From contig JAFXLL010000010.1 of assembly GCA_017531225.1 (NCBI GenBank), positions 372,001 through 436,000 of the forward strand: a stretch of DNA of 64,000 nt. Reading direction: 5' to 3'. How positions within the stretch are numbered: the stretch's first letter is position 1; each line of letters opens with the position of its first letter. A model generated the notes under the pieces. That model was given only the letters and a program-made list of their open reading frames with translations. It was not told the DNA's origin and made no database searches. Below, one piece after another: positions 36,539 to 64,000 of the stretch. Both the position numbers and the translations under genes were made by a program. The stretch comes from Bacteroidales bacterium. Lineage in GTDB: Bacteria; Bacteroidota; Bacteroidia; Bacteroidales; F082.

Positions 36539-38281
<1,743 letters not shown>

Positions 38282-41649: not shown

Positions 41650-41720
41650 TGTCCAATGGTGTAATGGCAGCACAACTGACTCTGGATCAGTTAGTCTAGG
41701 TTCGAATCCTGGTTGGACAA
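41650..41720 (+). tRNA. tRNA-Gln (anticodon CTG)
   Basis: A complete cloverleaf: acceptor stem TGTCCAA/TTGGACA, anticodon stem ACTGA/TCAGT around loop CTCTGGA (anticodon CTG, reading CAG), and T arm with GGTTCGAATCC. The first pair is T-A, as in most tRNA-Gln. The discriminator is A and CCA is not encoded. It is flanked by its own promoter and terminator. Confidence 0.95.
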
Positions 41721-41728
41721 CTAAGCAT

Positions 41729-58491: not shown

Positions 58492-58523
58492 ATAAAAAAT
58501 GGAGACGATTTCTCGCCTCCATT
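58492..58523 (-). terminator. Terminator of the gatE-gatD operon (minus strand)
   Basis: On the minus strand an 11-bp stem (AATGGAGGCGA with TCGTCTCCATT, one G-T pair) around the loop GAAA is followed by a T-rich run. It lies 24 bp after the gatD stop codon. Confidence 0.8.
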
Positions 58524-58546
58524 TTCTTTTCGTTAATTGCATCTAT

Positions 58547-59935
58547 TTACTTATGCACCTTACGGACGAATTCATCGACCTCGGGCACACCGCCCTGATA
58601 GACGAGGTAGCCGTTGTAAGGCTCACGAGGCGTGATCTCACTGTTGATAGGAGTGAGCATGATCTTCTTCACCTCTTCCCTATCGTGAGTCTGACCTAAA
58701 GCCCAACCTAACTTGATGTAGGCGGTCTCAGCCAGCATGTTACCTGCCGGGATAATACCACGGTTCATCAGGTCACGGCCAGTGTCATACACAAACATGT
58801 GAGCATAACCCCAGATGGTCTGGACACACATGTACTGATGCACGCCCTTGTCGGTAGCACGTTGAATAGCGTCGAACATACCCTTGTTGACGTGACCCAG
58901 TCCTGTACCGTCCCAAATGATGCCCTTGTAGCCGTTGTCGACCAAAGCGTCGAGCACATCGGGCTTCATGCCAGGATAGTAGTAAAGGATAGCCACACGG
59001 TCGTCGAAGGTCGGGATGATCTTCACGTCACGGTCGTTGCGACGATGGTTGTATTCTTCCTTGATCGGCACTACGCCACGCTTGCGGTCCACAGTGGCCA
59101 CCGGTGTGTCACCGATGGTACGGAAAGTGGAACGGTAGCTGGAGTGCATCTTACGAACACGGGTACCACGATGCAGGAAGCCATACTCGTCGGAGGTGGG
59201 ACCGAACATGCAAACCATCACCTCAGCCACGTCGCCGTGACCAGCAGCTGTCATGGCATGCATCAGGTTCAGAGCGGCATCCGAGGAAGGACGGTCCGAT
59301 GAACGCTGTGAGCCCACCAGCACGATCGGCACAGGCAGGTTCTGGCACATGAAAGTCAGAGCAGCGGCAGTATGAGCCAATGTATCGGTACCGTGACCAA
59401 TGACAATGCCTTCGATGCCATTCTGGATCTCCTCGCCAATCTTCTTGGCCAAAGCGATATATTCTTTGGGTGACATGTTCTCGGAGAACACGGCAAACAC
59501 TTTTTCAGTCTCGAGGTTACAGATATCAGCCAACTCCGGCACAGCGCCATACAACTCACCAGGTGAGAATGCAGGAATCACAGCTCCAGTACGGTAGTCC
59601 AAGCGGGAAGCGATGGTACCACCCGTGCCGAGCAGTTTCACATGAGGAAGACCCTCGGTGTAGGGGAATTCCTTCTCAGGGATGTGATAATTGGCCTTCT
59701 TATAGTCAGTCTCCACCATGCTGGTGATAGTGCTGATATCCACGCCGATGTTGTAGCCCGTGTTGACCTTCATCACAATGTGTTGGTCATCCTGGAAAGC
59801 GGCGCGAGGCAGAATCGTTCCTTTGAAAAGTCCGCCCGTGGTCTGGCACTCGGCCTGACTCCACACGCGGCAGTTATATTTTTTAAGCACCTCAAGAGCG
59901 GCGCCCCAATATCCTTGGAAAAAATCTTCAGCCAT
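58547..59935 (-). CDS. gatD: Glutamyl-tRNA(Gln) amidotransferase subunit D (asparaginase-like, archaeal type)
   Basis: GatD frees ammonia from an amide donor for the GatE-catalysed conversion of Glu-tRNA(Gln) to Gln-tRNA(Gln). The 462-residue protein is longer than a type I/II asparaginase because of the GatD-specific N-terminal domain (about 1-95). The asparaginase core follows: LLGTGGTIAS (103-110, nucleophile Thr about 107), GHGTDTLAHTA (second Thr-Asp pair, 181-185), VGSQRSSDRPSSDAALNL and FGPTSDEYGFLHRGTRVRKMHSS. GatD and GatE are otherwise regarded as archaeal. It starts 8 bp after gatE, and the pair ends at a clear terminator. Metal sites and tRNA contacts were not examined. Confidence 0.9.
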   Translation of the reverse strand: MAEDFFQGYWGAALEVLKKYNCRVWSQAECQTTGGLFKGTILPRAAFQDDQHIVMKVNTGYNIGVDISTITSMVETDYKKANYHIPEKEFPYTEGLPHVKLLGTGGTIASRLDYRTGAVIPAFSPGELYGAVPELADICNLETEKVFAVFSENMSPKEYIALAKKIGEEIQNGIEGIVIGHGTDTLAHTAAALTFMCQNLPVPIVLVGSQRSSDRPSSDAALNLMHAMTAAGHGDVAEVMVCMFGPTSDEYGFLHRGTRVRKMHSSYRSTFRTIGDTPVATVDRKRGVVPIKEEYNHRRNDRDVKIIPTFDDRVAILYYYPGMKPDVLDALVDNGYKGIIWDGTGLGHVNKGMFDAIQRATDKGVHQYMCVQTIWGYAHMFVYDTGRDLMNRGIIPAGNMLAETAYIKLGWALGQTHDREEVKKIMLTPINSEITPREPYNGYLVYQGGVPEVDEFVRKVHK

Positions 59936-59943
59936 AATCTCTT

Positions 59944-61890
59944 TTATTTGATAGTGTTAGCCAATTCTTTCAATTCGATATTACCCACAGCCTCACGCAT
60001 CTGACCCATGATCCAGTTGCGTTTGTTGACGGCGGCGTGGAACTTCTTACGTGGGACGTATGCCGAAACAAGCTTGTCGAGCTTCTTGCTCAGCGTGTCT
60101 TCCGAAGCTCTTCTGAAGCCGATGGTGCGAAGCACTTCCTTCATATCCATGGAAGCGTCGGCAACCAGCACAGGAGCCATATTCCAAGCCAGACGGTAAT
60201 TGAGTTTCTCTTTCTTCAAGAAAGCGAAGAGCTTATAGAGGGTGTCGTTATTAAACTGTGAACCAGGATTCTTGCACATCAGGTTCTTGAGACGCATGCC
60301 CACGAAGCAACCCAACATACGGCCGTCCACCTCAAGCTTCTCCACGATGTCCTTCATCGCCGGGAACCAGTTCTTGGTGAAGATGTAAGTGAAGCAATCC
60401 TGCGGGACGTTCCATTCCTGCAGTTTGTAGTAACGGTCGACGACCTCTGAAGGCAGTTCCTTCTTCATTGCTTCGATCTCCTTCGGGTCAAGCGGGATAG
60501 GAGCCGAGTCGGTATCAGGATACATACGATCGGCACCTGGCAACACACGCTCGAAGATGGTGATGCCGTTGCAGATGGCCTTACGGGTTTCTTTCGGCAC
60601 GCCGTCGAATGCCATCAAGCAGCGTTCCTCGATGGTCTCGATAGCCGTAGGCATGTCATTCTTGGGACCCCAGATAAGGATCAAGGCGTCCTTCTCAGTG
60701 GCATGGACTTTCTTGCCCAACTTACGCCACACTGAAGGTTCCAGCACAGGCTCCATCATCTCGTCGTGAAGCATGTTCGGGCGTTCGAGGCAGGCGATCA
60801 CCTTCAGGCGGTCAGCAATTTCGTCGGCGAACATCTTACCAGGTTGGGTGAAATGCGACAACACGCCACGGAAACCAGGCAGACGGACGATCTTCAAGGC
60901 TCCGTCGGCAGCTTTAGCATCGCAAATCGGGGCATAATCAGTCTTGAAGCCCACGTCGGCCACTTCAACTTTCCAGTTATTCTTTTTCAGTTTTTTGTTG
61001 AGTTTCTCAGCAAGCAGCACCAACGACCATTGGCGGAAGCACTCGTTGTGCGACAGCTCAGGAATCCACTTGGTGTGTGAAACACCCTTCAGCTCGATAC
61101 GGGTACCACCAGTGCAGCTCACGTTGACGTCCTGACGGCCAGCGCCCATACCTGTACGCACCAAACCTGTGGAGCGTCCGAGGAAACGGATGAAGTCGCA
61201 GGTCTCGCGAAGTTCATCGGGGTTCTTGCAGTCGGGGTAAGTCACAGTCTCGATCAACGGCACACCCAGACGGTCGGTTTGATACACACGACGGTGGCCA
61301 ATGTCGCTAATCTCGCGGCAGGCGTCCTCCTCGATGCTCAGCTGGATCAGGCGGATGTCCTTCTTCGGCATCTTCAGCAGACCTTCCACGCCCACGATAG
61401 CGGTACGCTGGAATCCCGTCGGGATGGAGCCGTCAAGGTATTGTTTACGGGTGATATGTACCTCACCCACGATGTTCAGGTTAGAGCGCAGAGCGATGAT
61501 GATGGCGTTGTGCAGCGCTTCCTTGTTGATGGGGAACGGTGGAGTGTCATCGATGTCATAAGTGCATGCCGTCTGATTCTTGATACGGTAGACGATCTCT
61601 TTCTTCGTCTTGAACTCCATCAAGGCGGTGCCGTCGTATTCACCCAATTCCGAAAGGGTCGGGCGCATGTGACGGATCAGCTCGGCGTCGTAGTCCTCAA
61701 ACTTGTTGAATTTTCCTGCGGGGCAGTGGCAGAACAGTTTCTCTTTGGTCTTGATCTGCTGGTGCACCTCCAGTCCCGACATGAACCCGATGCGGTCATA
61801 ATCGGCCTGGGTAGCTTTCTTGCGCTCCACGTAACCGGCCTCTTGCATGGTCTGCTCGTAGTTGGCGCGAGGGTCGAAGTTAGTGCTCAT
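59944..61890 (-). CDS. gatE: Glutamyl-tRNA(Gln) amidotransferase subunit E (archaeal type)
   Basis: GatE binds and phosphorylates Glu-tRNA(Gln) and amidates it with ammonia from GatD. The 648-residue protein has the GatB/E kinase core (FMSGLEVHQQIKTKEKLFCHCP; GSIPTGFQRTAIVG; IEEDACREI; VPLIETVTYPD; GMGAGRQDVNVSC). It then has the AspRS-like insertion that GatB lacks (about 280-420, LPGFRGVLSHFTQPGKMFADEIADRL) and a C-terminal YqeY-like helical tail. Length and insertion separate it from bacterial GatB (about 480). No gatA or gatC is nearby. It precedes gatD by 8 bp, and its leader carries a heptad repeat. Confidence 0.92.
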   Translation of the reverse strand: MSTNFDPRANYEQTMQEAGYVERKKATQADYDRIGFMSGLEVHQQIKTKEKLFCHCPAGKFNKFEDYDAELIRHMRPTLSELGEYDGTALMEFKTKKEIVYRIKNQTACTYDIDDTPPFPINKEALHNAIIIALRSNLNIVGEVHITRKQYLDGSIPTGFQRTAIVGVEGLLKMPKKDIRLIQLSIEEDACREISDIGHRRVYQTDRLGVPLIETVTYPDCKNPDELRETCDFIRFLGRSTGLVRTGMGAGRQDVNVSCTGGTRIELKGVSHTKWIPELSHNECFRQWSLVLLAEKLNKKLKKNNWKVEVADVGFKTDYAPICDAKAADGALKIVRLPGFRGVLSHFTQPGKMFADEIADRLKVIACLERPNMLHDEMMEPVLEPSVWRKLGKKVHATEKDALILIWGPKNDMPTAIETIEERCLMAFDGVPKETRKAICNGITIFERVLPGADRMYPDTDSAPIPLDPKEIEAMKKELPSEVVDRYYKLQEWNVPQDCFTYIFTKNWFPAMKDIVEKLEVDGRMLGCFVGMRLKNLMCKNPGSQFNNDTLYKLFAFLKKEKLNYRLAWNMAPVLVADASMDMKEVLRTIGFRRASEDTLSKKLDKLVSAYVPRKKFHAAVNKRNWIMGQMREAVGNIELKELANTIK

Positions 61891-62021: not shown

Positions 62022-64000
62022 CTAGGGTAACGTTGTAAACATCTGATTGTCGCCATATCCACCTTGCATATTTTCACCTGCAGCAAAAAACCTAACATAA
62101 TAGGTCGTGTTGGGGGTTAAACCCGTCATAGTATAAGACCAAGCATCACCGTCAAGAGTATGATCCACTCCCACCACAGGATTTGGTGACGTACTCCAAC
62201 AAATAGCAGTGTACATAACCTGCCCCGTGGTAATGACACTTCCACCACACACAGCTGTAGTACTAGTAATATTACTCACTGGAGAAGTAATAACGGTAGC
62301 TTGAGGATACCCTCCTGTAGTTTTCGCTATCACCTCCCCATATCCGACTCCTACTGAGTTAACGGCAAATGCTCTGAAATAATATGTGGTATTAGGATTA
62401 ATACCTCCCCATGACACAGTAAATGTACTTCCAACTCCTTCCATTCCATTCTCCCAAGAAACCTCCAAAGTATAGTTGTTGCCATTGAACGTAGGATTTG
62501 GATCAGTACTAATTAAAATTCCCACTTTTCTGTAATCAATGTTAGCTCCCCCATCGCTTGTTATTATTCCAGAAGCAGACCATTCATATCCGTACAATCC
62601 ATTCCAACAAGAAGCAGAAAGGGTTGTTACCATTGGCACCTCTGGCGGCAAAGTAGTAAAAGTAACAGTATTGCCATAACTGGTTGTACCATTGCTGACA
62701 GCAAATGCTCTCACATAGTATGTAGTATTTGCCCTTAATCCTGTGATTTGCCCTGTAAACTCCCCTGATCCACTACCTATTGTTATTTTATTGTCATCAA
62801 TTGTTGGATTATTTGACATACTCCAACAAATTCCTCGTGAGGTAACCGCCACACCTGTGTTTGACACTATACCTCCAGCAATAGCAGTTGTTGCAGTAAT
62901 GTTGGTTATTTCAGCTGTTGTTAATCCTATCGCCGCACCAAAACTCACCGTTTCACCGTATGCAATACCAACATTGTTTTTAGCGTATGTGCAAATAAAA
63001 TATTGTTGTCCTGCTAGCAAATTATTAACTGTCACATAAAAATCTCGTGAATCAGTTAATTCAGCGGTGACACAAGTACCATTGTGAGCAAGATCGGAAG
63101 AGGTGCCATAGCAGCAACCACATTCCGTAATATAGGAGCCTCCATCACTGATAAACCAACCCCTGACTCCAACTGAATTTGTGGTAATATTTAAACTCGG
63201 ATCTGTTTGAAGCCCTGGTACACTCGGCTGACCCGCCGAATATGACAACACCAAACGTAAGCCGAGCGTTGACAAAGCCGTTGATGGAGAACGACGGCAT
63301 GCAACACGACACGACCTTGAGCCACTACCATAACCCTGTCCGCTATAACACCCTCCCCTCGTAATATGATTCTCACTGTATCCAACAAACTTGGCAGAAG
63401 GACCTATAGGATCCGTTTGAGGATCACGCACATATCCTATCTCTCCATACTTTTTCCCGCTTCTGTAATCACTGCACCACTCAGCCACATTACCACTCAT
63501 ATCATAAAGAAACAGTTCGTTTGGCTCCTTAAGTCCTACAGGATGTGTCACCTCTCCACTATTCTCGCCAAACCATCCCACAGAAGAAAGATCGTTACTT
63601 CCACTGTATGTATATCCGTGGCTCTGGTTTCCGCCTCTTGCAGCATATTCCCATTGAGCTTCTGTTGGCAGACGAAACTGCATACCTGCTGGCAATTGAT
63701 CACTGACTTTTGTGTTAAGCGTGGTCAAAAAGTCTTGGACAGCATTCCATCCGACACTCTCTACAGGCAAACCATCTCCTTGGAAAGTGCTCGGGTTATT
63801 TCCCATCACCGCCCGCCAAAGCTCTTGAGTCACTTCATATTTACCCATGTAAAAGCCACTCATTGTAACTTGATGAGGTGGAGTTTCCTCTGCAGAACTT
63901 TGTGGATCATAATTCTGACCATTCTCATTATCCTGTTGTGCTCCCATCCAATACGTTCCACCTTGAACCTTCCTCATATCAAAACTGACGCCATCAACCG
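62022..64000 (-). CDS. SUMF1/FGE-like domain protein with FN3-like repeats (5' end outside window)
   Basis: The frame remains open upstream of the ATG at 63977 to the window edge, and VDGVSFDMRKVQGGTYWMG matches the usual start of a SUMF1 domain, so the gene begins outside the window. The SUMF1-like domain (about 240 residues: MGKYEVTQELWRAVMG, FRLPTEAQWEYAARGG, YDMSGNVAEWCSD, RGGCYSGQGYGS) lacks the Cys pair of true formylglycine-generating enzymes as far as I can see, so it is likely a binding domain. About four FN3-like repeats of ~95-100 residues follow, each with GICWS/CCYG and NTTYYVRAFA-type ends. There is no T9SS tail. Composition is markedly more AT-rich than the genes before it. Confidence 0.85.
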   Translation of the reverse strand, partial: VDGVSFDMRKVQGGTYWMGAQQDNENGQNYDPQSSAEETPPHQVTMSGFYMGKYEVTQELWRAVMGNNPSTFQGDGLPVESVGWNAVQDFLTTLNTKVSDQLPAGMQFRLPTEAQWEYAARGGNQSHGYTYSGSNDLSSVGWFGENSGEVTHPVGLKEPNELFLYDMSGNVAEWCSDYRSGKKYGEIGYVRDPQTDPIGPSAKFVGYSENHITRGGCYSGQGYGSGSRSCRVACRRSPSTALSTLGLRLVLSYSAGQPSVPGLQTDPSLNITTNSVGVRGWFISDGGSYITECGCCYGTSSDLAHNGTCVTAELTDSRDFYVTVNNLLAGQQYFICTYAKNNVGIAYGETVSFGAAIGLTTAEITNITATTAIAGGIVSNTGVAVTSRGICWSMSNNPTIDDNKITIGSGSGEFTGQITGLRANTTYYVRAFAVSNGTTSYGNTVTFTTLPPEVPMVTTLSASCWNGLYGYEWSASGIITSDGGANIDYRKVGILISTDPNPTFNGNNYTLEVSWENGMEGVGSTFTVSWGGINPNTTYYFRAFAVNSVGVGYGEVIAKTTGGYPQATVITSPVSNITSTTAVCGGSVITTGQVMYTAICWSTSPNPVVGVDHTLDGDAWSYTMTGLTPNTTYYVRFFAAGENMQGGYGDNQMFTTLP

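Follow-up and report, generated by a model that had tools for sequence, protein, structure and literature searches.

A GatDE-type gene pair of a bacterial clade coexists with GlnRS in a Bacteroidales genome

According to the available sections of PMC9499178, the amidotransferase GatDE is today confined to archaea, all known members of which are without GlnRS; the same sections give the archaeal GatDE reaction and its ND-GluRS partner, and report the argument that LUCA had GatDE nonetheless. The window studied here, a stretch of 64,000 nucleotides from a Bacteroidales bacterium, contains gatE and gatD as well as glnS and a tRNA-Gln gene. What does such a pair do in a bacterium that has GlnRS, and where did it come from? 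A first-pass annotation of the window, which regarded GatDE as the archaeal route to Gln-tRNA(Gln), suggested that the pair had either been repurposed or been acquired recently from an archaeon of the same habitat.

The features of the locus are listed in Table 1. Domain and profile searches and structure alignment identified the GatD_N domain and the asparaginase-type core in GatD. Thr107 in TGGT, Thr183 and Asp184 in HGTDT, and Lys262 in RKMHSS, which we take to be the catalytic positions, were aligned with the archaeal enzymes from M. thermautotrophicus (2d6f) and P. abyssi (1zq1). GatE has the catalytic core of GatB/GatE (PF02934, 149.5 bits) and scored above the cut-off of TIGR00134 and below that of NF003107 (434.8; cut-off, 456). 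It also contains the AspRS-like insertion, the absence of which would make the protein a GatB. Alignments of the tail to GatB of 3kfu, 3ip4, and 4wj3 extend to residue 648; a search with the whole protein gave no YqeY match from Pfam there, which is no evidence of absence. The terminator that the first-pass annotation assigned to the pair was also recovered: the hairpin 3' of gatD (-20.5 kcal/mol, z -7.0, none of 200 shuffles equally good) was detected by folding and is absent from the terminator-scan list. The open reading frame immediately upstream of gatE (62022-63977) is low in GC (43.7%; GC3, 32.7%), has a start that reads like a formylglycine enzyme, and has no counterpart in the eight other loci of the genus compared.

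Table 1. Positions of the gatE-gatD locus and related features in the window
Feature	Position	Strand	Remarks
gatE, Glu-tRNA(Gln) amidotransferase subunit E (putative)	59944..61890	-	648 aa
AspRS-like insertion, coded within gatE	60601..60984	-	about residues 303-430
GatE C-terminal tail	59947..60120	-	residues 591-648; YqeY-like by position and GatB alignment; sequence diverged
gatD, asparaginase-like amidase subunit (putative)	58547..59935	-	462 aa
Terminator-like hairpin and U-run, downstream of gatD	58494..58527	-	RNA folding
glnS, GlnRS (parallel direct route)	36539..38281	+	
tRNA-Gln(CTG)	41650..41721	+	U1-A72, A73

The genome from which the window was taken (G000; completeness, 98.4%) contains glnS, two tRNA-Gln isoacceptors (CTG and TTG anticodons), and glutamine synthetase. 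Searches of this genome for gatA and GatB gave no match, and one GluRS was above the cut-off. Thus, domains, profiles, and the genome search bear out the first-pass description of a true GatDE pair beside GlnRS and tRNA-Gln without GatCAB; among the further genes that it had proposed to look for, the second tRNA-Gln was found, and gatA, gatB, and a second GluRS were not. The pair shares with GatCAB the GatB catalytic core and, as far as position and alignment show, the tail, and differs from it in the AspRS-like insertion of GatE and the asparaginase-like GatD. Glutamine synthetase was found in 39 of the 40 genomes searched, including this one; therefore, GatDE is ruled out as the sole source of glutamine. 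An indirect route alongside direct synthetases is also described for GatCAB beside AsnRS and GlnRS in Bdellovibrio, Deinococcus, and Thermus; for Bdellovibrio, the available part of that source (PMC4206432) proposes that the indirect route serves to make asparagine in the absence of AsnA and AsnB. A reason of this kind does not transfer here, because glutamine synthetase is present.

Above the cut-off, GatE was present in 30 of 61 genomes, comprising 23 of 37 from the genus (this one included) and 7 of 24 others from the order. Of 100 genomes drawn from the genus, 55 had a GatE match (51 above the cut-off) and 45 had none; when only those with completeness of 90% or more and contamination of no more than 5% were counted, GatE matched in 22 of 47 and had no match in 25. 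As many close relatives without GatDE live with GlnRS, GatDE is dispensable. A draw of 392 genomes from the phylum gave GatE above the cut-off in 31, namely, the present genome and 30 from outside its class; no other drawn member of its own class was positive. We then searched a selection of 80 genomes, to which 50 of the 60 having GatE above the cut-off belonged. GatD was above the cut-off in all 50, and also in G029, where GatE was not found. GlnRS was above the cut-off in 43 of the 50, which rules out replacement of GlnRS by GatDE in general, and it stood alongside in 17 of the 20 genomes with other bacterial GatDE checked in the phylum. The seven exceptions were four genomes less than 90% complete (G003, G008, G016, and G045) and three at least 98% complete (G373, G347, and G311); GatB-type matches were also seen in G373 and G347.

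Beyond the phylum, when aligned bacterial GatE sequences were used as the query against named genomes, at least 552 relatives were obtained among 591 stretches; with such a query, the scan says nothing about the number of archaea with GatDE. All titles of the best 80 name bacteria. These 80 span 13 phyla in the NCBI ranks (Ignavibacteriota, Bacteroidota, Planctomycetota, Acidobacteriota, Calditrichota, Chlorobiota, Fidelibacterota, Aminicenantota, Latescibacterota, Cloacimonadota, Krumholzibacteriota, Gemmatimonadota, and Zixiibacteriota), 21 of them having no phylum there. Chance binning of archaeal contigs is unlikely, because four of the best 80 loci are on records (all from MAGs) with chromosome in the title, and G192 consists of one contig. 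The first-pass view of GatDE as the archaeal route was therefore too narrow. In 70 of the best 80 loci, gatD lies downstream of gatE on the same strand (within 400 bp in 67), and in eight of the other ten, the sequence stops within 431 bp past gatE. The window pair has this usual gene order, and shares its clade, with the GatDE found here in Ignavibacteria, Kapabacteria, Aminicenantes, Planctomycetota, Calditrichota, and others. Among nine loci of the genus, the pair occupies at least three different chromosomal settings. In four genomes of the genus (L009, L011, L012, and L016), gatE looked like an orphan; this was ruled out, as the same contig carries gatD at a distance of 1.7 to 11.4 kb. 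The genes adjoining gatE in these four loci read as secreted proteins. One genome of the genus has gatE and gatD in a single frame of 1100 aa (L316:342-3644; G030:C9), which could be a natural fusion or an assembly error; unless it is the latter, it fits two subunits of one machine. In a distant genome (L306; G074:C45), glnS adjoins gatD-gatE in convergent orientation. An unannotated GatE-like stretch in two pieces was also seen on a haloarchaeal plasmid (Natrinema thermotolerans, L202:3001-4883), with no gatD annotated within 3 kb.

The pair resembles archaeal GatDE in its two subunits, its domains, and its conserved core positions, and differs from it in sequence: the two archaeal enzymes are about 33% (GatE) and 42-45% (GatD) identical to the window proteins, whereas the bacterial GatE compared outside the genus are 43-60% identical. 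In the GatE tree (59 rows), the two archaeal rows were separated from the 57 bacterial rows with support of 100/100, and the window fell in a clade of 13 rows (100/100) that consists of Bacteroidales and two genomes of another class (G216 and G447) and has a long stem (1.75 changes per column). The GatD tree (55 rows; a full GatD was lacking for three of the rows used for GatE) recovered the same clade with 12 rows (100/100; stem, 0.52). The window type is thus a long-branched, Bacteroidales-type subclade, with GatE 43-46% and GatD about 65% identical to the other bacterial representatives compared. The Bacteroidales type also occurs in two genomes from a different class (L091 and L092), likely by transfer within the phylum. 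Codon bias of the pair is like that of glnS (Nc, 40.1 for gatE, 40.7 for gatD, and 40.8 for glnS; mean of 42 open reading frames in the window, 47.3). Recent capture from an archaeon, the second of the two initial suggestions, accords with the printed description of GatDE as archaeal in the available part of PMC9499178. It is contradicted by the trees, in which neither subunit nested in an archaeal clade, by the identities, by the spread over the order and phylum, and by the codon bias, and we consider it extremely improbable. With two sequences on the archaeal side and a very long row (L089), the trees do not fix how deep the split lies, and bacterial GatDE may have been inherited or taken up long ago.

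Both genes are under strong purifying selection. Against relatives in the genus, dN/dS was 0.049-0.158 for gatE (14 pairs) and 0.016-0.033 for gatD (10 pairs), with dS of 0.67-1.42, close to saturation in some pairs. The patchy presence in the genus might suggest a vestigial, functionless pair; dN/dS well below 1, intact frames, and the presence of gatD with every gatE checked make this very unlikely. We favor, with moderate confidence, a working bacterial GatDE, that is, a tRNA-dependent amidotransferase most likely serving as a second line beside GlnRS. The reaction is assigned from the family and the conserved core, and the role from three observations: the pair stands beside GlnRS, relatives can do without it, and it is under selection in the genomes that have it. 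By the chemistry generally attributed to the family, GatD would free ammonia from glutamine (or asparagine), and GatE would use ATP to activate the glutamate of Glu-tRNA(Gln) and amidate it to Gln-tRNA(Gln). GluRS would mischarge some tRNA-Gln, and repair by GatDE would keep this tRNA from being lost or becoming a source of Gln-to-Glu errors. A larger share for GatDE, as a main route to Gln-tRNA(Gln) for some of the tRNA-Gln, GlnRS then having a secondary or specialized role, would suit the strong codon bias, the two isoacceptors, and the three nearly complete GatE-positive genomes of other classes without GlnRS above the cut-off; we regard it as improbable, since GlnRS is found in most genomes of the genus and GatE in about half, and two of those three genomes also have GatB-type matches.

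The main rival to the ordinary reaction is a changed substrate: the Bacteroidales type would keep the ATP-driven amidation of the glutamate carboxyl group and act on another carrier, e.g., another tRNA or Glu-tRNA outside translation. In addition to the long stems of the clade in both trees and the GlnRS already there, the C-terminal half of GatE points in this direction, as it is remodelled in comparison with the archaeal enzymes and with other bacteria. The helical part and the tail are 13.7% and 14.9% identical to those of other bacteria (10 versus 39 rows), as against 28.8% and 22.7% among the other bacteria themselves, and the basic tail motif ..RGR..G.. has been lost, reading ..GNI..EL. 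These parts contact tRNA in known enzymes; therefore, tRNA recognition by the Bacteroidales-type GatE has probably shifted. The catalytic side argues the other way. The N-terminal catalytic part of GatE is 64% identical to that of other bacteria. Where other bacteria reach 90% identity or more and both archaeal enzymes agree with them, the Bacteroidales type has mostly retained the residue as its majority residue (GatE, 100 of 112 positions; GatD, 118 of 127). The excess path length of the clade is similar in GatE (ratio, 2.32) and GatD (2.03), hence not peculiar to the tRNA-binding subunit, and acceleration of GatE alone was not convincing. Moreover, no recurrent neighbor besides gatE and gatD occurs within up to 3 kb in the 80 loci, the largest other family being present in six. 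Thus, the repurposing suggested at first has the altered C-terminal half in its favor and the retained core against it, and we judge it rather unlikely.

For the favored role, repair of mischarged tRNA, the source of Glu-tRNA(Gln) matters. The only GluRS of the present genome (G000:C11:267206-268636; L051:1501-2931) is not of the native Bacteroidales type, and the native type was not found in this genome. Among the 100 genus genomes, this foreign GluRS was found in 16 (including the present genome; 90-96% identical to its enzyme, two being fragments) and the native GluRS in 74 (mostly 40-45% identical to the enzyme of the present genome; two fragments, 52-53%), and ten had no GluRS match at E 1e-50. 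The best solved structure was 4gri for the foreign GluRS (409 bits, versus 307 for 6b1z) and 6b1z for the native one (622 bits); 4gri is B. burgdorferi GluRS (PMC4381286, in its Table 1). Across the order, 21 of 295 genomes matched the foreign GluRS at E 1e-100, all with 42-47% identity except the present genome and G754 (52%). When the ten genomes without a GluRS match (four with GatE) were excluded, GatE matched in all 16 genomes with the foreign GluRS, versus 35 of 74 with the native one. These 16 are not independent, because the enzymes are so alike that a single acquisition is likely. In a 32-row GatE tree, the foreign-GluRS rows lay outside a group of 19 native or unassigned rows (93/89); they did not form one clade, being unseparated with a native row (L232) among them. 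As GatDE also occurs with the native GluRS, it probably predates the GluRS swap.

If the donor was a spirochaete-like bacterium with a single GluRS and no GlnRS, the foreign GluRS may charge tRNA-Gln; in Table 1 of PMC3927822, whose columns are flattened in the available text, four of five spirochaetes stand under a single GluRS without GlnRS. Demand for GatDE in this lineage may be greater for the reason that its only GluRS is foreign. In a fuller scenario, this lineage would have, in parallel with GlnRS, a whole indirect route for glutamine built from unrelated parts: the native GluRS gave way to a foreign one charging both tRNA-Gln and tRNA-Glu, and GatDE, an old enzyme of bacteria that is ancient in both domains and kept by many bacteria, repaired the product of this GluRS and made the swap survivable. 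We offer this scenario only tentatively. The equivalent of T. thermophilus Arg358 was dropped as a mark of a discriminating GluRS, being kept in 30 of 30 GluRS compared, including those of two genomes without GlnRS above the cut-off; the available part of PMC3927822 also notes that the residue does not exert its effect generally.

The GatDE family is known, and its occurrence across many bacterial phyla contrasts with the archaea-only statement in the available sections of PMC9499178. The bacterial clade makes the question of GatDE in LUCA directly testable. Genes of this kind have probably been annotated automatically as GatD and GatE, and Sheppard and Soll (2008) is said to be the key paper on GatDE evolution; a literature search judged by titles and the openings of abstracts found no description of bacterial GatDE. 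A survey of bacterial Glu/Gln synthetases (PMC3927822, available in part) took missing gatCAB to mean that in Bacteroidetes the indirect route no longer works and GlnRS is essential, and GatDE undercuts this wherever it occurs. If GatDE is ancient and kept by many bacteria, scoring the indirect route by gatCAB alone would misjudge these bacteria. Two routes to one aminoacyl-tRNA, both maintained by selection, would also offer a natural system in which to test how cells deal with mischarged tRNA.

The available sections of PMC9499178 state that archaeal GatDE recognizes A1:U72 and the D-loop; the tRNA-Gln here has U1-A72, which would speak against the ordinary Glu-tRNA(Gln) role. Of 40 regions taken around glnS, six contained tRNA-Gln. 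A73 and U1-A72 were seen in all seven tRNA-Gln of six GatE-positive genomes and in the single tRNA-Gln of a GatE-negative genome, so that no link between a special tRNA-Gln and GatDE was seen. A73, described in the same sections as archaeal (G73 being bacterial), is present in both tRNA-Gln of the present genome (41650-41721 in the window and L048:1501-1572) and may be a trait of the order. Both tRNA-Glu (L056:101-175 and L061:101-174) have G1 opposite U72, a wobble first pair. The tRNA-Gln(CTG) has 72 bases in the window and in G023, and 74 in G034 and G020 (e.g., L284:5201-5274).
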